Shown here: positions 1,439 through 59,200 of the stretch, piece after piece
Layout: each line of letters starts with the position of its first letter
Position numbering within the stretch: position 1 is the first letter of the stretch
DNA from: Dromiciops gliroides
Lineage: Eukaryota; Chordata; Mammalia; Microbiotheria; Microbiotheriidae
DNA: 64,000 nt
Direction: 5' to 3'
Assembly (NCBI RefSeq): GCF_019393635.1
Contig: NC_057863.1
Span: 643,967,306-644,031,305 of the forward strand
The notes under the pieces: model-generated
What the model saw: the letters and a program-made list of their open reading frames with translations, nothing else
What the model was told of the DNA's origin: nothing
Database searches by the model: none
Made by a program: the position numbers and the translations under genes

Positions 1439-14956
<13,518 letters not shown>

Positions 14957-16891: not shown

Positions 16892-19800
16892 ATGGCGGCG
16901 ACGGCCGCGGTGGGGATCCCGGGGGCTGCGGGCGACCCGGGCCGGGGCCGGAGCACGCCCGGGGAGGTCATCCACCTGAACGTGGGGGGAAAGAGGCGAG
17001 TCCCGAGCCCAGGCCCGGGGAGCCCCTGGAGAGCGCGCTTCTCCGCGCCCTTCCCTGCGCCCATTTCTCGGAAGGGGAAGCTGAGGCCGAGAAGGAGACC
17101 GGCCCGGGGAGGGGGCGGGGTGCAGCTGGGGTCCTCTGCCCCAACCCCCGCCCCCGGCGTCCCCTCCCTCCCTCTCACAGCCGCCTCTTCTCCGCAGGTT
17201 CAGCACCTCCCGCCAGACGCTCACCTGGATCCCCGACTCCTTTTTCTCCAGGTGACTGGGGAGGGGGGGGAGCCCCAGGTGGACCCTCCCCCTTACGCAG
17301 CCCGGGGACCCCCACCCCCTTAATGTGCCCCCGGGACTCCCACCTCTCTCTCCACCCTTCGGGGACCCCTCCCCTCGGTGACCCTCACCCTTCCTTTCTT
17401 TGCTCCTTGGGGACCCCTCCCCTTGATGACCCTCACCCCCTTCTTTGCTCCCCCACAGCCTCCTGAGTGGGAGAATTTCCACCTTGAAGGATGAGACTGG
17501 AGCAGTGAGTTTTGGGGGACAGAGGCTGGTTTTGGGGGGATGGCTACTGGGGGCTGGGCCCTCCCCCAATGGTCTTCTCCGCCCATCTCCCCCAGATTTT
17601 TATCGACAGGGACCCCACAGTCTTTGCCCCCATCCTCAACTTCCTGCGAACCAAGGAGCTGGACCCCAGGTAGGCTTCTCCCAGGGGAGGGGTTTTGGGG
17701 TGGGAGTGGCTGATCCTGGCAGAGGAGGGGGCTTGGAGGGGGAAGGAGTCCCATCCCTTGTCCTGACCCCGCCCTGCTTCATCAGGGGTGTCAACGGCTC
17801 CCTTCTCCTGCATGAAGCCCAGTTCTACGGGATCACCCCTCTGGGTACGTCCACACTCCTGCCCATCCCTTTCCCTACCCCCACCCCAACAGGTATTTAT
17901 TAAGTACCTAAGGTATACCCTATAGCGATTAGATGTTAAGAAAGGCAAAAAGCAGAGTCTACCCTCAGGGAGCTAGTCTAATGGGGCTAGAGGAAGAGGA
18001 TAAGGATTTCCAGACTCTTTCTGGGGAAGTGAGGAGCCCCCCATTTGGATTAGGAAGCAACAACTACCCAGACTGAGAAAGAACTTGGGGTTTGAATGAT
18101 GTGCAGGGGGTGGGGGTGGCTGGACGAACTCTGGGAGAAAAGGATCCTGTGGGCCAGAGTGAACCCAGAACCCTTTGCGGAGAAGGGCATCTTCTCCCAT
18201 TCTGCCGTCCTTCTTCAGTTAGGCGTCTGCAGCTCCGGGAGGAACTGGACCGGTCATCTTGTGGGAATGTCCTTTTCAATGGATATTTGCCCCCACCAGG
18301 TACAGTGGTGGGGGGCATCTTCTCTTCCCAGGGTAGAAGGGAGCCATAGATGGGCCTATGGAACAGGATAGAAAGAAAGGAGGATGAATCCCAATGCTTC
18401 CAGCCCCTTACATCCCATGCCCAGGGGCATGATGGGAGTTGTAGGGGGGTGGGGGGGATGTGGGAGAGAAGTATCCTAAGTCTAAGCCTGGGCTGGGGCC
18501 AGATTGGGGCTGTCAGTGAAAAGTAGAGGAGGGTGAATTTGTTCCCAGGTTATAGGGAGCTTCTGGAGATTGTTGAGGGAGATCATGGTGGGGGACTCCA
18601 ACCCACCACTACCATCCCCTCCCTTTCTAGTGTTCCCAGCCAAGCGGCGAAACCGGCACAGCCTTGCAGGTCCCCAGCTGTCAGGCGGCCGGCCGGCCCC
18701 GGTGCGCCGCAGCCACACCATGCCCCCCAACTTGGGCAACGCAGGGTTGCTGGGCAGGTTGCTGGAAGACAAGGCACCCACGCCCCCCTCAGGTACAACT
18801 CTGAGTACTGGTGGCCTCCCCCAGCCCCGGTGTGGCCCTGTAAGTGAGCCCCTCGGTCATAGGAGGAGCAGCCACTTCAGAAAGGCCCAGATCCCCTCAA
18901 TCCCTTGTGGCCACCCAGGGATGCCGGACGAGCCAGGGATGGTGCGGCTGGTCTGTGGCCACCACAACTGGATTGCCGTGGCTTATACACAGTTCCTGGT
19001 GTGCTACAGGTATGACTGTGGAGGCCACAGAGGCCACAGATGCAGGCGGGAGGGTGGGCAGGTCAGAAGTGGTCAGGGCCTGGAGGTTGAAGATGATGGT
19101 CATCAGACACTGGGGTCTGGAGTGTGGACATGGGAATGTGGAAGGGGCAGTGAGGGCGGCAGGAGCCCAGGGCCTTGGGGGTGGGAGAGGTTAAGGATAT
19201 CACATCCCACTAAGTAAGGGAGGCAGAGAGGAGGAAAGGGGCCCGGGTGAGCATGGGGGTGTGCCAGGACATACGTGGTAGGACTTCAGGCCCTCTCTGC
19301 CCACCAGGCTGAAGGAGACATCGGGCTGGCAGCTGGTATTCTCAAGCCCGAGGCTGGACTGGCCCATTGAGCGCCTGGCGCTGACTGCCCGTGTCCCTGG
19401 CGGTGCCCTGGGCGAGCATGACAAAATGGTGGCCGCGGCTGCTGGCAGCGAAATCCTCCTCTGGGCCCTGCAGGCTGATGGCAACGGCAGCGAGATTGGT
19501 GGGTGCCCTCCCGCCACGTGGGAAGCCTTCCCCCAGCCTAACCCCTCTCCTCCCTTGGCCTCAGCCTCTTCCTCATCTGCCTTCCTGGCCCCTCGGGCAT
19601 GGGCCCCTCCCAAGGGCAGGACCCTTCCCCTGGTCCAAGCCTCCTCCTGCTCTGGAGGGTCCCCCTTCCTAAGGGCCCCTGCCTCCTTCCCATCTCTGTC
19701 GTGCCTCTTCCCCCCCCCAGCCCTAAAGGCCCCTCTTGCTCTCCCTGGGCTGTTCCTCAAAGGGGCTCAGCCCCCGGGCTGATGGGCCCCATCCCCTCAC

Positions 19801-29183: not shown

Positions 29184-29820
29184 CTCATGAAAAGCATTCA
29201 CCACAAATGTTCTCTGCAAGGTCCAAGTGGAGGAGAAATTCCCCATAGGCCCTCGAGGATTCTGTCCCAAAGTTGCAGGAGCTTTCCAGGGAAGTGAAGA
29301 TTTTCTCAGTGATGGACTTCTTTGAGCAGGGCTTGGGTGACAACTTGTCAGTGATGTTGCAGGGGTGGATTCGCATGCAAGTATAGGTCAGACTAGATAC
29401 CCTTGGAGGCCCCTTCCTGTTCTGAGAATATGAAGTCTAGCAAATTTGATTCCATTAAACAGTTATGAAAGGCTTACCATATTCAGATCACATGATATAA
29501 TTGAAGCGCCAAGCCTTGGTTTCCTACAAGTAGAGTCAGCATATTTAAATTACCCAGAGTACAGCAAAGGCCTCCTAGCCTTCAGTGTATTTGGAGTACT
29601 CTCTAATCTAGAACCCAGAGACTCTAGAATGCACCCTGAATCCAAGAGGGGGAGGAACCCATATGTGACAAAGAATTCCCACCATAACACACACTACAAT
29701 GATCATCTCACCTCTACAAAAAGACTTCTAGCAGGTCTTCCTCCCCCTCTCCCTTCAGCACCACCTTCTCAGACAGTCCATTCCAATTGTGGATAGCTCC
29801 AGTAGTTAGGAAGGCTTTTT

Positions 29821-29827
29821 CTTTTCT

Positions 29828-29893
<66 letters not shown>

Positions 29894-29948
29894 TTCCTTC
29901 CTTCCTTCCTTCCTTCCTTCCTTCCTTTCTTTCTTTCTCTCTTCCTTC

Positions 29949-30022
<74 letters not shown>
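29821..30022. repeat. (TTTC)n / (CCTT)n microsatellite, about 200 bp
   Basis: Long pure TTTC tracts flank a CCTT core at about 29890-29960. The open frames it creates on both strands are artefacts. Confidence 0.97.
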
Positions 30023-30595
30023 GATGTCAAACCTAAACTTGTTCTTCCATTCTGCTCTTAATTCTGTCCTCTGGAACCAAAGAGAACAAGTCTAATCTCT
30101 CTTTCACGTGTTAGTCCTTTAAATATTTGAAAATAGTTCTCTTGTGTACCGCCGCCACCCCAATCTTCTCTTTCCCAGGCTACACCATCTCAAGTTCCTT
30201 TCTACCAATCTTCACATAGCACAGACTCAAGACCTTTCAACCACCCTCCTTGTCTTCCCCTGGCACTCTCCAATTTAACAAAGTCCTTCCTAAATTGTTG
30301 CACTCAGTTGTGTGTCTGACCAGGGCAAAGGTATAGCAGGGCCATTACTTCCTTATTTCTTTTCCTGAAGGCATGCCTTTGGATGGATTCTAAGATCACA
30401 CTAACTTTGGGGGGCTGCCATATCACAGACAGGCTGCCAGAACCCAGGAAGTGGTAATCTAGATCCCAAGTTGGGTCTAGAATGCAGCCTAGAATTCAAG
30501 AAAGTAAAGGTGACCTAGAAGGGCCACTGGGGTCCAGTAACTGCTCCCTTCCATTTTTCTCCCATCTGCTTCCCATGGACCAGGATGATGGTACA

Positions 30596-30830
30596 GTTGC
30601 ATTAGCAACCAGAGGGTGCAGTTGTGATGACTCAAAGGAGGAGGAGCCAGGGGTACAGAATCCTCCCTCGGCTAAGAATCTGGGGTGGGGGCTGGGGGGG
30701 CGGGAAATATAATCCTCCTAGAGTTGGAGGTGGGGATTAGATTGGACTCCTCCCTGTTTAAGAGAGGCGGGGCTGCCGAGGGGCGGGGCTTCCAGGCCGG
30801 GAATTGGAGGGTTTTGGCTAAGACCGAACA
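30596..30830 (+). promoter_or_regulatory. Promoter of the TUNAR-like gene: X-box, AP-1 site, GC boxes
   Basis: A 14-bp palindrome GTTGCATTAGCAAC at 30596-30609 matches the X-box layout bound by RFX factors (GTTGC, four bases, GCAAC). TGACTCA, an AP-1 type site, lies at 30628-30634. GC boxes (GGGGCGGGGC) follow near 30780. The segment lies directly before the candidate 5'UTR exon of the small gene. Binding is inferred from motif only. Confidence 0.5.
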
Positions 30831-31152
30831 GGCTGACCTGTCCTCCCCCTCCCCACCTGCGGGTAAGAGGAGGCGGCGGTCTGGGGTGCAGAGCAGACTG
30901 AGACAGGGGCGAGAGGGCCTGGTTGAAGGTAGAGGACTCCGGAGTCCTGGCCTGGAAACAGCAGGTACGGAGGCTGAGAACCATGCACACACACAACCTC
31001 ATTCTTACCCACCCTCCACCTCAGTCCCGGGGCAGCGAACACTCACGGGGCCTCCATCCCACAGGCTCCGGGGAGCCCTGACAGTGGTTGTATCTGGGGA
31101 CCGAGGAGGAAGAGGAGGCACCAGCTAATGCTGCGAGGAGGAGCAGGAACTG

Positions 31153-33191
31153 ATGCTGCGCTTGGTGAGGGCCTGGAGACCCGCCCCCTCCCTCTCCTCC
31201 CCTTCCCTTCTCTCCCTCTTTCCTCTCCTGGAGCAATTCCCCATTCTCCAAGTATGTGTGTTGGTGTGCACTTGAGTGTAATTGCGAGTATTCTTTGTTT
31301 CACTGCATGTGGACCACTGTATGTCTATTTGTACCAGTGTGGGTAATCGTGTATGGGTGTGCATGTCTGTGTCTCTGTGTACTCTCTGTGTCCCATGATA
31401 TATGTACCCCTGTATGTTTGCGTGTGCCTGGGAGCACCTGGACCCCTGTGTATGTAGCCTCCTCTCCATACGTTGCATGTGCCTGAAATTTGGCACATGT
31501 CTATCTTTGTCTCTGGGCATCCCTGTGTACTCTCTGGGCATCAGTGTAGGTGTAGCTCTCTCTCTATGTCCCTGGGCACCTGGGAGTAATTGTGTGTGTC
31601 CCATGTACCTCTATCTGTGTGTGTGTCTGTGTACCTCTACCTCTTGGTGCATGTGTTATGTCATGAATGGAATTAGTTTTGAGGTGTTCCTATATTTGAG
31701 TATTTTGTTTCCTGTGCGAGCACCTAGGGATTTCTTTGTGTACCTTGAGTAAGTGTGTTTATACCTATTTGTGGGTATCTGTATGTAATTGTGTGTGTAC
31801 CTAACTCAGTCTCTCTCCTCTGCATGTGTACCTCTGTATGTGTGTGTGTGTGTGTGTGTATTTGGAAGCAATAGTGTGTTCATATCTGGCTCTGTTCATC
31901 TGTTTAGTTTTATCTCTGGTGTCACTTGTGTGTAATTCTTCATGTGTGTAGCTGTCTCTAGGTATCTCTGTTATCTTCTTCGTACTCTATTTTCTCTGTC
32001 TCTGTGTCAGTGGACTGAGTCCCTGTGGCTGTGGCTGTGGCTGTGGCTGTGGTAGGGAACACTCAATCATTCACTCATTCATTCCGCAAACATTCCCTCA
32101 GGCTCAGAGAGGGCCCTGGGAGAAGCTAAGGGGATTTGAGAGATGAAGCCCACCTAGCTCTAAGAGAGCTCCCAGGCTAGCAGAGGCTTTCATACAGACA
32201 CAAGCCAAAAATAACCAATTCAGAGCCCTGGGAAATAGGGAAGGCAATGATTAAGATGGTCCCTTTGACACAAGCTTGGAGGAGATAGTGATTTGTCCAC
32301 TACACACAGGAAGTTCCTTGAGGTAGAACTCAAACTCTGATCTCCTGACTCTCCAAGTCAAGGCCCAGGCTGGATATGGTCAGGGTCGGGGGAGAGGGAG
32401 TACTATAGGAAATGAGGTGAAGGAGGAAGTATTACTTTAGACTGGAGGGGAGGGGAAGAATCAAATGAAGAGGAGGGCGGATGAAGAGGAGAGGGATCCT
32501 TCAAAGGCTTCCTGGAGGTTGGCCCTTGGATGTCAGGGAGCTTTTCTGGGTTATGTTAGTAGGCTCACAGTGAAGAAGAGCCTGATGGGCCTTAGCCACC
32601 ATACGTTACACTCAGGTTTCAGCAAATCCCTTGTCAAGGACCCATGTGTGTGAGAGGACCTGGGTGGTGGGGGGAGGGAGAAGCCACTCCTCTGTCATTC
32701 TGGGTCTCCCTCTGGGGTCGTGTCCTCTGTCTCCAAGTCTTTCTTTGGTCACCACGTCTCTTTCTCTTTCTGTGTGTCCTCTGCCTCAGAGGTCTTTCTG
32801 TTTCTCTGTAGTCTCTATCTCCCAGGGTATGTGTCCTCTATTTCCAGCGTCTTTGTCTTTTGACCTCCCTGTCTCTGGGTGTCTCCGTTGTCCTTTCCTC
32901 TTGGGGAAATGGGGCGGGGGCTGGGGTGAGACACTGGGCAGGCATGGTCCTGAACTTCCGGCTGATGGGGAAGAATCTAGGGGTGGCCAGAGATAGGGCC
33001 TCTTCCCTGGCCACGCCCCGTTCCCGACCCCTCCCCAGCTCCTGTGATTTCTCCAGGAGGAGGGGAGGTTGCGGATGGAAGAGCCCATCGGACCGGAGAG
33101 GGAAGAGAGGCTGCTGGCGCTGCTGGGCCTGGTAGGCACAGCACTCAACCTGCTGGTCCTCGTCTGTGTCTACGTCTACACCACCCTCTGA
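31153..33191 (+). CDS. TUNAR/BNLN-like single-pass membrane microprotein, 48 aa, two coding exons
   Basis: Coding exons 31153-31164 (M-L-R-L) and 33057-33191 join in frame to a predicted 48-residue protein. Its second half reads EERLLALLGLVGTALNLL followed by a VYVYTTL end. As I recall it, human TUNAR is also 48 residues with EESVLAMLGIIGTILNLI and the end VYIYTTL. About 18 of the last 29 residues agree, including the terminal YTTL and the GT-LN core. TUNAR is a small ER/membrane peptide linked to neural and beta-cell calcium handling, so this copy is likely a paralogue with one transmembrane helix (about residues 23-43) and a charged N-terminus (EEPIGPEREER). An internal ATG at 33075 would give a 38-residue form. 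The N-terminus is the least certain part. I do not know its official symbol. Confidence 0.72.
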
Positions 33192-33920
33192 GCTGATGTC
33201 ACCTACTGGGGCGGGGCCCGGGAAAACCCTCTAAGGTTTTCCGTTGAGCCTATGGAGCTGGAGGCGGGGCCTTTACATCTCCTTGAGAAGACTGGGTCTG
33301 CATGGAGGGGGCGGGGCCGGGGAGCAGGATGGGATTTGGAGCCACTTTCTGAGAGAAGGGCCACTGGTGGCGGGGGGCGGGGCCTAGAAAGATGGGGGAG
33401 GGGCCTTCATGAGAAGGTGGAGCCTAGACCCACCCTGGGACCGGGGCGGGGACTGCCTTTGGAACCTCACTAGGTGGGGCCAGGTGGAGGGAAAGCGGAT
33501 CAGTAAGGAAGGACCTGGGTCCTTCGGTGCTGGTCAAAACTTGGCACATTTCGCTCTACTGGGGTTAGAATGAAAAATATACCACGGGTTCCAGCTGCCT
33601 TGACCCCGGCACCTTCCACGTGGAGACCCAGTGAGGAGCGAGGAATTCTCTGGCCCCAAACATTCCGATGCAGAACCCGCCAGTGTAGTCCGCACCGCCG
33701 CCCAAGCGAATTCCCCGGCTCAGCAGGGCTATCCCTCTCTGCAGTCCCTGCAGGGCAGGGTTTCCGGGGGGTCCACAGCCAGAGGGTTTTGCCTCTCTCC
33801 CGAATCTGGGGTCGGAGTGAGAGGATGAGCTCTCTCTTCCCTAGAATCTCTCTGGGGGGTCTGGGGGTGCGATCATATGGGATTCTCTTCGTACTACCGA
33901 ATTTGAAATAAACCCGCCCT
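33192..33920 (+). terminator. 3'UTR and poly(A) signal of the TUNAR-like gene
   Basis: GC-rich untranslated sequence follows the TGA at 33189-33191. AATAAA is at 33907-33912. LTBP4 promoter elements begin less than 300 bp further on, so the two genes are closely packed in tandem. Confidence 0.6.
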
Positions 33921-34194
33921 TGACCATGATAAAAGACTTGGGAGTGCCAGCCTCCTTACTGCGCCCGAGGCCAGGGGTCCGAGGATGGAGCCTACTGCAG
34001 GATTTCCTAACCCCCTGCCTCCTTATTCAGGTCTGCTGCACGTGGGGTCCGAGGGGGACGGGGCTCATGGATCCCTGCCCCTAAAGGATCCACGCGAGAT
34101 GTTCTCTGTCGTCACCCGTGGGCCGTCCAGGGCACCCCCCCTTACGCCCCCAAGTCCTCAAGGGCCACCTGTCTCAGACGCCCCGCCCCGTGGC

Positions 34195-34440
34195 ATCCTC
34201 ATTGGCCCTTTCCGAGCACCCCCAGCCGGCACTGTGCTCTTATTGGTCAAACCAGGGCTCCCCCGGCCGGCGCCGCACCCCATTGGTCCAAAGTTGGAGC
34301 CCGGCAGCGGGGGAAAGTTGGGTCTGGTGGAGTGGCGGGGAGGGGAGGGCGGGGTAAGAGGAGGGAGTCCGGGGCGCGGGAGACCGAGGGACCAGAGTCT
34401 AGGGACTGGACGGACAGGGACAAGGGCAGGTGTCAGGGAC
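34195..34440 (+). promoter_or_regulatory. LTBP4: Upstream LTBP4 promoter with three evenly spaced inverted CCAAT boxes
   Basis: ATTGG (CCAAT on the minus strand) occurs at 34201-34205, 34242-34246 and 34282-34286, at 41 and 40 bp spacing. The segment is GC rich and lies 155-240 bp before the first LTBP4 start codon at 34441. Multiple CCAAT boxes in phase are a known NF-Y promoter layout. No TATA box is seen. Confidence 0.55.
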
Positions 34441-37400
34441 ATGGAGCAGGACAAGATGCTGCCGCGGGGCCCCAGCTGCCGCCTCCGCCACCGCCCCCGT
34501 CCCCTCCTCCTGCTCCTCCTCCTGCTGCTGGCTGGTCCACGAGCCGCGCCCAGGCCAGGCCGTCGGGGCTGCAGGGACACAGGGGAGTAGAGGCCGGGGC
34601 CGTCCAGGGGGGCCAGGCCCGGTAAGTGCGCTCCTTCCCTGATTCGCTCCCTTTCCTCTCACTCTCAAACAAAACTCTCCCCCCCCCTACCCCAGGGGAA
34701 GGGTCTCACATGGACTGAAGTGGGGGGGGGACCAAGGGGGGAGCTCAAAACTCAGGCCCGCCCCTGCATCCCAGGTGGTACCAGCCCATCCCCCCAGCTT
34801 GCAATCGGCGCCCCCAGAACTAAGAGAAATGGAGGAAGAAAGGAAGGTGCTAGGGAAACACACAGAACCCTCACAAGGAGGACAGAGAACAGCCCCCCAA
34901 TTTCCAGGCAGTGCCAGCCCGCCCCCTCAGCCTGTAGTCGGTTCCCCCCCGTGGTCCCCGCCAGAGCGGGACGGGAGGGACACAGAGCCCGCAGTGTGTG
35001 CACTGGAGGTCCCCTCGACCTCGGAATCCAGGTGGCGGCAGCCTCGGGCTGCAGTCTGTGCCCCCGGCCCCATTAGAAAGGAGGGAGGGAGAGGGAGGGA
35101 AAGTCCTCAACTGTCTCCCCACCCCGGGTCCCGGACAGCCCTCTGTCTGTCTGGTGGTGGAAGCCCAGGCCCCCTCTCCCGGGTTTTGGGTGGAGAGAGA
35201 GCCGGCCCTGGCTCCCTCCTCCGCCCCCCTGCCAGTTCGGCCCCCGCGCTCCGCTACAAAGGGCCCAGGCTCCGACTCCCGCCTCTGCGATCCGCTCAGT
35301 AACCCGAGCTCAGTCGTGCAGCGCCGCGCCGGGGGCGGGGCTGGGAAGGTGTTAACTGGCAGGCCCGGGGGGAAGGGCTTCTCCAAGGGTTTTTCTCTAA
35401 CGCTCTTTCTCCATGGGGGAAGCAGAGACTTGGGACCCGCAACCCAAGACCCAGCCGCAGTGTCCCCTCACGTCGCCCCATTTTCTACCCCCTTCCCATC
35501 TAAGGGGCCTGAGAGCCCGTGGGTCTCGCAACCCACTCCAGGGGAGAATGGAGCGGGTCTTGGAGGGGTGCGGAGGAGGGGGTGCGCCTGCGCAGGGGTT
35601 GGAGGTGGTAAGAAAGGGAGGAGGGACACTAGGGTTTTGGGGCCTCGGAAGCCTGGCCCCAGGCGCAGAGCCGGGCCTCTGGGAGGGCGGGGCGCCACCT
35701 TGTGGAGGGGGGGGGTCAGGAGGGAGTGCGTCCTGGGGGGCCTCGGGGAGCTGGTGGAGGCTGGACGCTAGCAGCCGAAGCCGTGGGGTAGCGATGCCCT
35801 GCTGACCCCGGCCTCTCCTCCCTCCGGCGACCCTCTGCTTCCAGCCCTGCAGCTGCCTGCCGCCGCTGCTGCGCTGGGCGCCCTCCACGCCCGAGCCCCT
35901 GGTCCTAGAGGTGAGTGAGTGCCCTCCAGGGGCGGAGGTTGGACGGGGCGGGCGAGGGTCGCGTGGGGCAGGGTGGAGCGCAAGATGCACCCTGCCTGAG
36001 CTCCTGCCGCCGTCTCTGTGGTGGCACTGGGCGCGGCGCAGGGGGCCCTGGAGGCTGGGTCTCACGGAGCCCGAGGGGAGGGGAGGTTCTTGCTCTCATC
36101 CCCGGGTCTCTCCCCTACAGCTCACTGTTCGTCCCCGCAGTGCCCACCAGGGGGGCAGTGTGGAGCTCCACAGCTGTGTCCCTGCCGGTCGGGCTGTCGG
36201 ACAGTTCGTGTCCCCCGGGCCACAGCGCCCCCCGCCCCCAGCCCCGTGCCAGCCACCCTAGAGAGGCCTCCCTCACCTGGCAGCCGCTGACGTGAGTGCG
36301 GCCTAGGGGCTCCTCTCCTGACCCCAGTCGTGCTGCCCCCTGCCTCTGATTGTCCTCTGCTTCGTTTTTCACTCCTTGTTGGACTGGCTGTCCCATAGTG
36401 ACCATCACTTCCCGCCTCCCATTACCTCAGTTGTCTCTGCCTCTGTGGAGTCACTGTCTCTCTCTGGGTCTCTGCTGACTGGGTTCACCGATTAGACGGG
36501 TTCTCTCTGTTCAGTACCTCCTCTGCCTTTCTCTATTTCTGTCTTCTTCAGAAGCGGCATAGTACTTGGGAAGGAGGCTAGACTCAGAGGACCCAGCCCT
36601 CCCATTGTGGCAAGTACTTAAGGTCCCTGGCCTCAGTTTCCTGGTCTGTACAAAATGAGGGGGTTGCACTAAATGAGCTCCATACGGTCTTTTCCAAACC
36701 ATAGATCTATGTTTTAGAATGCTATTGTCTTGTATCTCTGTCTCCCTGTGGAAGGCCCCAATCTCTTCTTCTCCCCCAAGTGGTGAGTCTGTCTTTCTCC
36801 CTGGGGACTCTCTCTTTCCACCTGTCTTCTCTGAAGATATTCCTATGTCTCCTCTCCTTCATCTCCCTGTCTCTGACTCTCCAGCTCATCTTTGTCTCTG
36901 ACTGTCTATCTGTTCTCTCTCTCTCTCTCTCTGACTCCAGGCTCCATTCCTTCTGTGGATTCTGACTCAGAATCTCCCTCTGTGGCTCCTCCCCCCCCCT
37001 TTCCTTCTCCCTCTCTCTCCCTCCTTCCTACCACATGTTGGTCTCCAGTCTCTTCCCTGTGGGTGGGCCCCTTTCTGTGAGTCTCATCTCTCTGTGGGTG
37101 TCTTTGCTTCCCCCCCTTTTCTGTATCTAGATGGCTCTGCTTGCAGATCCACATCTCATCTCTTGAGTGTCTCTGCCTTGTTCTCCTGTCTCTCCTCCCT
37201 GTCTAAACTCTTTTTTCTCCTCTTACTCCCCACCTTTTTGAGACTGTCTCTCATCCGAGGTTCTATCGCATGCCATTTGTGTCTCAAGTCTCGAATTCTC
37301 CTGTCTCTTTCTGTCAACCACATGGTGTGACTCTCTTCTCTTCCTCAGGATCCTCTGCTCTCCAGCTTTCTCTGTCTCCCCGGAGACAATTTCTCTCAGT

Positions 37401-53200: not shown

Positions 53201-56200
53201 GTCTGCCCCACCAGCCCTGATGAATTTGACCCCATGACTGGACGCTGTGTTCCCCCAAGACCTCCTGCCATGTGAGTGTCATTCCTCTCTCTGTTAACTG
53301 ATGGCTGCAAACTGACACCTGTATGAGTCCGAAGCCACCCGGTGATTAACCAACTTTGTATAGCTGTTTGCAAAGGTGTCCATACCACTTGCTTAGGCCT
53401 GGTGTTCAGTCATTTTTCAGTTGTGTCTGACTCTTCATGATCCCATTTTGGAGTTTTCTGGCAAGATCCTAGAGTGGTTTTGCCATTTCCTTCTCCAGCT
53501 CAGGTTACAGATGAGGAACTTGAGGCAAACAGGCTAAAAATGACTTGCGCAGGGTCACACAACTAGAAAGTGTCTGAAGTCAGATTTGAACTCTGGAAGC
53601 TGTCTTCCTGACTCCAGGCCCAGCACTCTATGCACTATGGTCGCCAACCTAGCAGCCCTAGGACTGTCAGCAAGTAAAATTTGGAAAATCAGATGTGTGA
53701 CTGTTCCCTCCCTGGACCCTTTCTGTCTCTAAAATGGGTGGGAGCGTAGGACCTCCAAGGGCCCTTCCAGCTCCAGTGGTCCATAACCCGGGAGTCACCA
53801 TAGCATTGTCACTTGCCAGCTTCATAGACATTTCTATGTGCCCCCCGAATACCCAGAGCAGCCTGTTGGTTAAATTGGAAAAAAAAAAGGTCAGGGGCAG
53901 CTAGGTGGCACGGTGGATAGAGCACCGGCCTTGGAGTCAGGAGGACCTGAGTTCAAATGTGCCCTCAGAAGCTTGACTTTACTAACTGTGTGACCCTGGG
54001 CAAGTCACTTAACCCCAATTGCCTCACCAAAAAAAAAAAAAAAAAACTGGCTGGGACTCGGGCCTGCCCTGCCCATGTTCCTTATTGTTGGTGGACATGG
54101 TTTGAGGGACAGTGGGTGTGTTGTTGTTCTGGGTCCTTGATGAAAAACCCCCTGTTTGTGCTATTCCCAGGGTCGGGTCCTCAGCTGCCCTCCAGCCCAG
54201 GGCTCCCTGCCCGTCCTCCACCTCCACCTGCTCCTCCTCGTCGGCCCGCTGGGCCGAGGCCTGGCCCTGGCCCCTGGGTTAGCAAGATGGGCGAAGGGAG
54301 TGTTATTATGACACTGGGGCCCTGATGCCTGTGACAACATCCTGGCGCGGAACGTCACCTGGCAGGACTGCTGTTGTACTGTGGGCGAAGGCTGGGGTCA
54401 TGGCTGCCGCATCCAGCAGTTGTCCGGGCCCTGAGACAGGTGCTGGGGGATAAGGAGGCTGGCAGAGGCTGGGTGTGGGGGAGGGGGAGTTAGAAGTGGG
54501 GGGCAGGAGGTGGAGGGGGCACTGGGGGAGAGGGGGGGTGGGAGGGAGACATAGAGGGAGGGAGAGAAGAGAGAGGAGAGAGGGAGGAGAGAGGAGAAGG
54601 GAGGGAGGGAGGGAGAGAGATAGAGAGGGAGGGAGAGAGGAAGAGAGACAGGGAGGGAGGGAGAGAGAGGGAGGAGAGAAGAGAAGAGAGGGAGAGGGAG
54701 GGAGAGGAGAAGGGAGGGAGGGAGGGAGAGAGATAGAGAGGGAGGAAGAGAGGAGAAGAGAGACAGGGAGGGAGGGAGGGAGAGAGGGAGGGAGTGAGGG
54801 AGAGAGGGAGAGAGGGAGTGAGAGAGAGGAAGGGAGGGAGGGAGAGAAACAGGGAGGGACAGAGAGAGGGAGGGAGACAGGGAGGGAAGGAGAGAGGGAG
54901 TGAGGGAGAGAGAGAGGGAGTGAGGGAGAGGAAGGGAGGGAGGGAGAGAGAGGGAGGGAGGGAGAGGAAGGGAGGGAGGGAGAGAAACAGGGAGGGACGG
55001 AGAGAGGGAGGGAGAGGGGGCTGAGAGAGGAGAGAGAGAGAGACATAGAGAGGGAGCTGGGATGCCTGAGTCCTCAGGCTGGAGGGGGAGTCACCCCACT
55101 TTGGGCCCTACCTCAGTAAGTCAGTAATATGCCCTTCTCTTTGCCCAGCGGAATACCAGTCTCTGTGCCCACATGGCCGGGGTTACCTTTCCCCCCCAGG
55201 AGAGCCCAGCGTCCGGAGAGGTGAGTCATTTGACAGTGGAAAAGGGTAGCAGATGATGAACTAGTCCCTTCTTTGAATGACCTTGGGTAGGTCACTTCTC
55301 TTTGGCACCCAATTCCTCATCCCTAAGTTGAAAAGGATGGATGAGATGGCCTCCAAGCTGGCCCTGAGCCCACTGACTCCAGAGTCTGATACTGCCCTCA
55401 TTTCTGACTTGGCCCGCTTCTCCCTGTGGCCTCACATCCCATCTTCTGGCTCCTGTCAGTGGCTGACTGTTGATTGCATCTGCCCAGTTTCTTTCTCAGG
55501 TCCTGGCATCACATTCCCTCGGGGCTGTTGGGTGGGATGAGGTCAGTGGAGAAGACCCTGACCTTTGAGCCTTTGGCCCCTCTCTTCCACAGATGTGGAT
55601 GAGTGCCTTTTGTTCGGGGACCAGGTGTGCAAGAGTGGGGTATGTGTGAACACGGCCCCCGGCTACTCCTGTTACTGCAGTAATGGCTACTACTACCACA
55701 CCCAAAGACTGGAGTGTATAGGTAACGCCCCCTCCCTGTGCTGGGCAGCCCTCTTTGGAGTCTGGCCTCCATCCTTCCTTCAGTAGCTGAGAAGAGAATA
55801 AGATTGGGGAGGAGAGGGCTTTGTATGGGGCTGGGGCTGAAGTCTGACTTCCATTCCTCCTCCTCCTCCTCCTTCTTCTTCTTCTTTGGTGAGGCAATTG
55901 GGGTGACTTGCCCAGGGTCACACAGCTAGCAGGTGTTAAGTGTCTGAGGCTGGATTTGAACTCAGGTCCTTCTGAATCAGGGCTGGTGCTCTATCCACTA
56001 CACCATCTAGCTGCCCCACTTCCATTCCTTCTGATGCAGCAAGGAAGGTGGTCAAATGGGGGACGAGAGGGGAAAGCTGAGCTCCAATGGTACCACCCCC
56101 CCTTCTTGGGAGGCATGGTCTCCATCCTTTCTGCTTCTGCAGAGGAGATGAGCTGGAAGGTGGAGGTGCTGTCTCTGGGCTTCCCTCCTTCTCACCCCCC

Positions 56201-59200
56201 GTGTCTCCCCAGACAATGATGAGTGTTCCGACGAGGAAGAAGCATGTGAAGGTGGCCAATGTGTCAACACGATCGGCTCTTATCACTGTACCTGTGTCCC
56301 CTCCATTGGTGCTGGATGGCTCCCGGCGCCGCTGTGTGACCAATGACAGTCAGAGTTTGGGTAACCAGTGGCCCTCATCTCACCTCTCCCTGGGCTAGAG
56401 GGATGGATGGGTGCCCTGCCTGGAGAATGGATGCCGGCCCCTCTGGAGGTGGGAGGGAGCCCAGGCCTTGGGTGTGGGGCTCATTCTGGGGAATCACAGA
56501 GTCCAGGGAAAAGAGAATCACAGGGACCTATTGGGGATTGGGTCTGGGAGGGAGAAGAGAGGAGAATGAGACATCTTTCAGAGGAACTGACAGCAGGTAG
56601 GAGACAGACTATCAGCAAATACCTTCCTTCCTTCCTTCCCTCTGACCCCTTATTCAGATGACACCTGGCTGTGTGCTGGCAGGAGGTGGGGCCGGACCTG
56701 GTGTGTAGCCGCCCTCGACTGGACCGTCAGGCCACATACACAGAGTGCTGCTGCCTTTATGGGGAGGCTTGGAGCATGGACTGTGCTCTGTGCCCAGCCA
56801 GAGACTCAGGTACTGCCCCCTCCCCCAGTGCCCTCAGCAGTGTGGCACCAGATCAGAGAATTCACTTCTGCATCCCAGAAAGGCAGCTAGGCTCAGACAC
56901 CAAGGAGTCTGATTGGTCGGTCTATGGCCTTGGGTACCACCTGTCACCTAGTGGCCATTGCTGGAATTACAGGCATGGCTCCTAAGAGGAAGGCTCAGAG
57001 TGACCTGAGGAGCAAAGAGGTGAAGGGATTTTCCCAGGGTCACCAGAGCCAGCCTCAGAGGCAGGAAGACTTGAGAGATATTCTACTTCTGAGGCCCTGG
57101 ACAAATCATTTCACTCCTCAGTCCCTAAAATTATGTTCATTGTGGACATAAGACTAAGAATGTTGCGGGTCTGGGGGCAGCTAGATGGCACAGAGGATAA
57201 AGCAGTGGCTCTGGATTCAGGAGGACCTGAGTTCAAATCTGACCTCAGACACTTGACACTTACTAGCTGTGTGACCCTCATTGCCCTACAAACACAAAAA
57301 CTAAACAAAAACCAAAAGGAAAGCCAAAAAAAAAAAAAAAAGAATGTTGTGGGTCTGCCTGGGCTGAGGAAGGGTGTTACCTCAGCAGGGAGTTGGTTAC
57401 CTAGACCGGTGCGATCCCAGCTTGGCACCCAAAGAAGGACCATGTGACTAATTCCATATTGGAGGCAAAATTTGAACCCAGAATGCATGGGCCTACTGTC
57501 ATCCCACCTAGTTCACAAGATCAGAGGATTTCAAGCCAGAAAGTGGATCTGAGCCCTTTGGCCCTCCTCCTTTTACCCCTCCAGATGACTTTGAGGCACT
57601 GTGCAACGTCCTTCGTCCACCAGCCTACGGCCCAGCCCGCCCCGGAGGCTTTGGGATCCCCTACGAATATGGACCAGACTTTGGACCGGGCTATGGGGGT
57701 CTCCCCTATGGACCAGAGCTGTACCCACCCCCACCCCCACCAGTCCCTGGGCTGGGCTATGACCTTACCCACCTCCTCCAGGGGCCCTGCCTTTCCCTGG
57801 CCCAGGTAGTCCCTATGGCCCACCACCCTTTGAGGTGCCTGACTTTGACTCGGTTGCTGCCGGGGCCTACAGGGAGCCTAGGGCCGCCCACCCCTGGATT
57901 CTACCCACCGCTGGCGCTATCGACCCGGGACACCGGTGGCTCCTTCCCAGAGCCTGAGGAGGAAGAGGAAGAGGAGACTGGAGCACCCTATGCTGGTGAG
58001 CCCCCCTGGAGCATGGTCCATGGGCTCTCTCGGGACAGATGGTAGCATTCTGGGCTTCCCTCTGTGATTCTAGACTCCTGGCCCATGCAAGAGAGGGGGG
58101 CTGGTCCACCCTGACTGCCTTCCACTCCAGCCCCTTTACTACCAACCAGCCATCCCTGCCACCCCTCAGACCCTCCCCACCTCCTTTACATTCATCTTTC
58201 TCTCCCCCAAGCACCTGAGGCTTCCAGCCCCTGGTCTCTGTCTGGGTCTCTGCTCTTTTGGGCTACATCTATTCCCTCCCTTTTATTGGCCTGTTTCAAG
58301 GGGGCAGCTTAGATTTAAAGAGCCACGCACAAAAGAGCACCCTAGCCTTTGCCCACCTGCCTCCCCAACACCCTCAGTAAAGCTCAGTGGGTCACAGGAT
58401 TCAGCAGGAGAAGGGAAATCTGCCACCAGCTAGCGGGGTCTGCTCTTGCCTCTTCCACATCATTGGACATGAGTCCCAGGGAAGGAAGGTGCCCAAGGTC
58501 ACAGCTGTGTGACCTCCCCATTTCTTACAGAAGTTCTGAAAGCATTAGTCAGTCAGTGGCTAAAACCTTGGTCAGGTGATTCCTTCCCTGCTCTCCCCAG
58601 GCACTCCCCCACTCCCTCTCACATCTGTCTGATGCCCAAGGCTGGACCTGGGCCTGGCTCTTACATCCTGGATGGCTGGAGCAGCCAGGGGTGGCTGGGG
58701 AGGGCAAAGGCGGTGGCAGACCTGTGGCCTCCCCTCCCCAGCTTCCCAGTATGAGCCCTTCGAGGGGCTGCAGGCTGAGGAGTGTGGCATCTTGGACGGC
58801 TGGTAACAACGGGCGCTGCATCAGTGTCCCCGAGGGCTACACCTGTGACTGTTTTGATGGCTACCGGCTAGATATGACCCGCATGGCCTGCGTGGGTGAG
58901 CTCGGGTGGGGCACTTGGAGGAAGGAGGGCAGGGGAGAGGGATCCGGGGTCAGAATCACTATCCTGAAGGAGGCAGAGTGTGGAGTGTCCCACCCCTCAG
59001 GACCAAAGAGGCCTGGCTTCCCTTAGGGAGGTGGTGTGGGACCAGACTCCTGGGTCCTCAAGGTAGCTAAGCCAGGTGTTTTGGGTGAGGAGCCCTGAAT
59101 GTCCACATACTAAAATCCAGCCTGACTCTCCTCTTTCAGATATCAATGAGTGTGAAGAGTCGGGAGATCGGACCTCACTGTGTGTGAACGGGAGGTGCCT

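Follow-up and report, generated by a model that had tools for sequence, protein, structure and literature searches.

We analysed a 64,000-nt window of the Dromiciops gliroides genome (NC_057863.1:643,967,306-644,031,305, forward strand) and, unless a chromosome is named, give coordinates as positions within it. Three neighbouring genes on its plus strand concern us here: SHKBP1, represented by an exon of its BTB domain (17430..17900) that matches PDB 4crh, SH3KBP1-binding protein 1 (E 1.6e-10, 27 residues); a short two-exon microprotein gene; and an LTBP gene, represented by two TB-domain exons (54327..56808, with PF00683 at 54327-54410 and 56704-56808), the first of which was found about 21 kb downstream of the microprotein gene. 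The original prediction had placed the microprotein gene between SHKBP1 and LTBP4. The PDB match bears out SHKBP1 and the TB domains bear out an LTBP, but the name LTBP4 derives in part from the gene order expected for this region; we take the gene to be LTBP4 rather than another LTBP because of that order and because other LTBP-type loci lie elsewhere in the genome. Pfam searches of five pieces of the window returned a spectrin domain in one, a TB domain in one and nothing in three, including the first stretch tried for SHKBP1. The spectrin repeat lies further upstream in the window, in a gene that is presumably SPTBN4. The open reading frame list also contains a minisatellite-like repeat at 13785-14521, in which several frames are open on either strand.

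The two exons were located exactly by the original prediction: 31153-31164 and 33057-33191 join in frame to encode 48 residues, MLRLEEGRLRMEEPIGPEREERLLALLGLVGTALNLLVLVCVYVYTTL. The coding part of exon 1 (31153..31164, Met-Leu-Arg-Leu) comprises the 12 nt before the donor, a position and phase shared with TUNAR and with a BIRC6-linked relative described below, and an in-frame TAA at 31126..31128 closes the frame upstream of the ATG. The phase-0 intron of 1892 nt (31165..33056, GT...AG) is canonical, as had been claimed, with the donor TTG/GTGAGG at 31165 and the acceptor TTTCTCCAG/GAG at 33057; an alternative acceptor at 33039 would lead from exon 1 into an in-frame stop, and another at 33060 would remove one Glu. 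Exon 2 (33057..33191) carries the remaining coding sequence and the stop codon TGA (33189-33191). Within it lie an internal ATG with G at +4 (33075..33077), which by its context and its position in the paralogs is the counterpart of the start of the 48-residue TUNAR and would give a 38-residue form, a match to the Pfam TUNAR family PF21954 (33099..33188, profile positions 19-48), and a predicted single transmembrane helix (33114..33176, residues 24-44 of 48, mean Kyte-Doolittle value 2.44 over 21 residues) that ends four residues before the C terminus. All of these features are on the plus strand.

The gene has its own poly(A) signal, as predicted, with AATAAA at 33907-33912 (plus strand). By eye, the LTBP4 start appears to be an ATG near 34443, some 530 bases past this signal (33907-34443), and read-through or shared regulation between the two genes is possible. 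On the 5' side, 30600..31152 (plus strand) is probably the leader or promoter region. The promoter-like region originally described is GC-rich (GC 0.56-0.63 and CpG o/e 0.32-0.38 in 400-base windows starting from 30600 to 31000) and on that basis no more than a putative promoter. The same region contains two more donor candidates, at 30863 and 30965, and an acceptor candidate at 31065, and a long TTTC/TTCC microsatellite occupies 29820-30023, about 1.1 kb 5' of ATG 31153. At -3 both window ATGs have C, where the starts of TUNAR and of the BIRC6-linked copy have A; the G that those two genes show at +4 is shared only by the ATG at 33075.

Membership in the TUNAR family

The 48-residue product matches PF21954 with 43.1 bits (E 4e-11, cut-off 27), or 41.5 bits when scored from DNA, and its residues 19-48 align with profile positions 19-48. 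The match runs to the end of the profile (48/48), which is also where the stop codon falls, and the protein shows the hydrophobic C-terminal core that ends in Y-x-Y-T-T-[LIV] at the stop, here as VYVYTTL. Profile positions 1-18, the N-terminal half, were not matched; because this half is also unlike between TUNAR and the second family member, we did not take it as family-defining. Compared with the human TUNAR sequence as printed in PMC11351124, 18 of the last 30 residues are identical and the first of the 30 is a mismatch, which yields the roughly 18 of 29 originally reported. NCBIfam and PDB searches with the microprotein gave no match.

These similarities exceed those of our controls. When the last 30 residues were shuffled, TUNAR was matched in none of 10 trials. 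With an HMM built from 114 family proteins that excluded the window protein, this frame ranked top of 1914 window ORFs at 52.9 bits, the next reaching 5.9, and the same HMM gave at most 4.9 bits on one reversed and three shuffled windows. The claim of a TUNAR-family gene is thus backed by the profile score as well as by a genome-wide search, a common intron position and mostly silent codon changes, described below. The LTBP4-adjacent gene is a new and apparently unannotated addition to the known TUNAR family, and we regard it as very probably a real coding gene.

Three family members with a common intron

We searched the genome (3,303,199,800 bases) with the PF21954 profile, scored 65 candidates and examined the best 12 of these. 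The cut-off was passed at three loci, with 104.1, 73.9 and 41.5 bits. The first is TUNAR itself (C2:303922764-303922907, L001), whose spliced model has 71 of 74 residues in common with P0012, the TUNAR annotated for the marsupials Petaurus and Monodelphis. The second is a BIRC6-linked copy, with the family match at C2:478425184-478425303 on the minus strand (L002) and the gene at C2:478425184-478426083 (L002, L011); its spliced model has 75 residues and an intron of 674 nt, and its kind goes under the name 'TUNAR-like' in a snake, in amphibians and in eels. The window gene comes third, so that the 'second family member' of the original prediction is in fact the third found in this genome. A fourth copy was sought and rejected: the fourth match scores 20.9 bits, matches 4 to 12 are all at or below that value, and the three of these nine that we inspected (L004, L005, L008) look unrelated.

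Over the 30-residue core the window protein shares 19 residues with the second copy, which is itself far closer to TUNAR (27/30). Eighteen of the 30 recur in the window protein, the second copy and both the human and the animal's own TUNAR; put otherwise, of the 26 residues that the two TUNAR proteins and the second copy have in common, the window protein keeps 18 and changes 8. At the nucleotide level, BLASTN gave a second-exon alignment of 98 nt (72%) between TUNAR and the BIRC6-linked copy, and no match between the window exon regions and either locus.

In all three genes a phase-0 intron follows an exon that ends CTG-ATG-N9/GT. The upstream exon of TUNAR ends TTCCTGATGCACTGCACG/GTAAGG, 73.6 kb away and about 0.3 kb after the sole CpG-rich place that our filter picked up in the 111 kb upstream, and that of the second copy ends TTCCTGATGCAATGTAGG/GTAAGG, 0.67 kb away; in both the frame continues across the junction, and the spliced models match long forms that have been annotated or predicted, among them MLPAPLLFLMHCMVSLRRR... 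and MSDDILFLMQCR.... Exon 1 of the window gene ends GAACTGATGCTGCGCTTG/GTGAGG, with the phase and the CTG-ATG before the donor as in the paralogs. CTGATG stands at that spot in 3 of 1031 good donors (both strands of two 120-kb stretches), two of the three being the genes themselves. Because the window donor was chosen for its preceding ATG, ATG 31153 adds no independent evidence, unlike the CTG before it and the phase. Agreement across this junction extends to only 14-15 of 24 bases, and we therefore regard homology of exon 1 among the three genes as likely rather than proven. A retrocopy is ruled out by the intron, which is kept in the same phase.

The shared structure also bears on where translation starts. 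The spacing from acceptor to inner ATG is exactly 39 nt, or 13 open codons, both in TUNAR and in the second copy, and 18 nt in the window gene. TUNAR has a longer isoform of 65 residues, 17 beyond the usual 48, and its main product starts within the second exon, the longer form being less translated (PMC8758570). Proteins of 65 residues are likewise known for TUNAR of Molossus, Euleptes and Liasis (P0025, P0047, P0050), and the spliced TUNAR model agrees with them. We infer that in human TUNAR the 17 extra residues correspond to 13 codons 3' of the acceptor plus four 5' of the donor. From this structure ATG 31153 is therefore the counterpart of the 65-residue start, and ATG 33075, which opens the 38-residue form, that of the 48-residue start. 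The original prediction had set the total length equal to that of TUNAR; the window frame does have 48 residues from ATG 31153, but the equivalence is a coincidence of starts that are not homologous.

Neighbourhood, relatives and divergence

The second copy sits between BIRC6 (PF12356, C2:478.370 Mb, plus strand) and LTBP1 (TB exons from C2:479.226 Mb, plus strand, one of which matches PDB LTBP1 with E 1.7e-32), on the opposite strand and some 0.8 Mb away from the first TB exon detected for LTBP1. TUNAR and LTBP families are thus neighbours at two loci, those of LTBP4 and LTBP1, and the odds of the second copy falling by chance within 0.8 Mb of one of the three other LTBP loci are about 0.15% (~3 x 1.6 / 3303). 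TUNAR itself shares its chromosome with another LTBP-type locus, 67 Mb apart, and the best 12 of the 65 genome matches include none near the LTBP-type locus on C6. Besides the LTBP- and fibrillin-like loci, a further TB-domain locus with four matches lies at C1:470618372-470690757 on the minus strand. Human TUNAR is at 14q32. We take PAPOLA to be a neighbour of TUNAR; a genome search with PAP_central returned six places, none close to C2:303.9 Mb, and so did not confirm that neighbourhood here. The third copy is probably an ohnolog from the early vertebrate genome duplications. Against a trio of ohnologs stand the 0.8 Mb and the strand change that separate the second copy from the LTBP1 TB exon, as well as the lack of a fourth copy among the matches. 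The human TUNAR transcript has been called orthologous to zebrafish megamind (linc-birc6) in PMC5300904; given the BIRC6-linked copy, which lies in the very neighbourhood that gave linc-birc6 its name, this orthology is worth rechecking.

Over 30 codons, the window gene differs from TUNAR at 10, 3 and 22 first, second and third codon positions (pS 0.79, pN 0.24) and from the second copy at 10, 4 and 23 (pS 0.96, pN 0.21), values that cannot be read as calibrated rates because silent sites are near saturation. In random-substitution controls, amino-acid identity was as high in 0 of 5000 trials for each of the two comparisons. Third-position GC is 0.81 in the window gene and 0.42 in TUNAR.

Relatives of the window protein in other species were few. 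A search of 5.8 billion proteins with the window protein alone yielded no candidate, which is no proof of absence because the search needs three shared words, and neither it nor its probe variants recovered a placental or other marsupial orthologue from this database. The gene thus appears to be unannotated there, in a database that does include TUNAR of Sminthopsis and of Petaurus/Monodelphis. When three invented probe variants were aligned with the window protein, six of 32 candidates were retained, all with the TUNAR domain. Three of the six are proteins of Gekko kuhli, Lepidochelys kempii and Eretmochelys imbricata (P0122-P0124), labelled hypothetical or unnamed, which share EER, LNLLV and VYVYTT with the window protein and differ from it in a longer N terminus and a last residue of I or V. 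Near the C terminus these three signatures occur in 9, 16 and 1, respectively, of 120 other family proteins (120 of 245 matches), a comparison in which the probes, themselves containing the signatures, favoured matches that carry them. The other three of the six, P0125, P0126 and P0127, are short, unnamed and more distant, and carry a diverged TUNAR core with YTP[VI]; they perhaps represent a fourth branch of the family.

Core identity to the window protein is 22/30 for the gecko and 20/30 for the turtles, and it does not favour the reptile proteins, since newt and eel 'TUNAR-like' proteins also reach 22/30; over the full alignment, identity is highest for the newt protein (67% of 45 columns). 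In the full-alignment tree the window protein falls outside the fork that unites TUNAR with TUNAR-like (86/84, the branch carrying no star), with the reptile proteins nearest by path, and in the tree of the 30-residue core it takes no resolved place. Its branch is long in both (0.36 for the core, 2.83 for the full alignment). For neither alignment did any of 200 bootstrap trees unite the window and reptile proteins in one clade (0%), a result with which a single origin remains compatible. A fuller scenario, which we put forward tentatively and at somewhat below even odds, is that three TUNAR-family ohnologs were born beside an ancestral LTBP gene and that the LTBP4-linked copy, unannotated, survives in marsupials and some reptiles as a fast-evolving microprotein that tunes SERCA.

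Proposed action and alternative readings

Our best overall explanation, to which we assign a probability of about 0.72, is a coding third paralog of the TUNAR family between SHKBP1 and LTBP4, with a 48- and/or 38-residue product and an inferred action on SERCA. The single hydrophobic segment near the C terminus has the layout of a tail-anchored protein, and the window protein would insert into the ER membrane in this manner with its acidic N terminus in the cytosol. One face of the helix would hold residues A25, G28, G31/T32 and N35 and lend itself to packing; this conserved face would sit against SERCA and alter ER calcium uptake, as with TUNAR/BNLN, and in either direction. TUNAR is localised to the ER, brings down SERCA2 in co-precipitation and, when overexpressed, makes calcium reuptake faster; Li et al. 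2021, as told in the same paper, found an interaction with SERCA3 and reduced reuptake in beta cells (PMC8758570). By analogy, modulation of SERCA by the window protein is rather more probable than its absence.

The window protein resembles TUNAR (also pTUNAR or BNLN) in its Pfam family, the hydrophobic C-terminal segment near the stop, 18/30 core residues and the phase-0 intron after CTG-ATG-N9, and differs in the N-terminal half, the acceptor-to-inner-ATG spacing and the length of the intron (1.9 kb versus 73.6 kb). With the BIRC6-linked copy it shares 19/30 core residues, intron position and phase and, at about 0.8 Mb in the case of that copy, an LTBP neighbourhood; that copy differs in its closeness to TUNAR and in an exon 1 with a longer N terminus. 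The regulins (phospholamban, sarcolipin, myoregulin, ELN and ALN) and DWORF are likewise SERCA-acting micropeptides, and the regulins carry the motif xLFxxF (PMC8758570). Lacking that motif and any Phe, the window protein is not a regulin, and a Pfam search with it gave no regulin match.

Several other readings of the locus deserve weighing. A chance hydrophobic frame that resembles TUNAR by composition could be entertained for a product this short and rich in leucine and valine, but the shuffle, window-wide and genome-wide controls and the intron position common to all three genes make it exceedingly improbable; the locus looks like an old third copy of the family rather than such a frame. 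More serious, though still unlikely, is a decaying third paralog that once was coding and has since become a unitary pseudogene or a non-coding RNA in this lineage, its 48-codon frame intact by chance. Such decay would fit the long branch, the poor start contexts, the 8 changed residues among the 26 shared by the other family members, and the protein database that holds marsupial TUNAR yet no match to this gene; the silent bias, too, could partly predate any recent loss of function. It sits poorly with a frame free of stops and frameshifts, two intact splice sites, 18 of the 26 residues kept, and changes that are mostly silent or at third positions.

If the gene is coding, as we favour, the two forms of its product have about equal odds. 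The 38-residue protein from ATG 33075 may be the sole product, with exon 1 a 5' leader and the MLRL start unused, and we see this as an even bet: in TUNAR, too, the main product starts within the second exon and the longer form is translated less (PMC8758570), and G at +4 is present at 33075 and absent at 31153, but the exon 1 ATG stands in the homologous place with an in-frame stop upstream. As to its target, the action of the protein in the membrane could be directed at a partner other than SERCA, such as another calcium ATPase, or the protein could have an extracellular-vesicle role. The TUNAR paper leaves other mechanisms open, reports vesicle localisation and finds TUNAR itself without the regulin motif (PMC8758570), just as the window protein has no Phe; the interactions of TUNAR with SERCA2 and SERCA3 reported there weigh against such a target, which we consider doubtful in comparison with SERCA.

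Reports on TUNAR describe an action on calcium pumps in neurons and beta cells, and the parts of the literature covered handle it as a single gene. None of the literature matches listed had a TUNAR paralog as the topic of its title or abstract opening, and a search joining LTBP4, SHKBP1 and microprotein found none. The gene illustrates how short frames split by an intron escape annotation, and it places a candidate calcium regulator beside LTBP4. A family of three copies changes the reading of TUNAR knock-outs, since overlap between copies is possible, and the three paralogs are ready-made variants with which the helix face that binds SERCA could be mapped.
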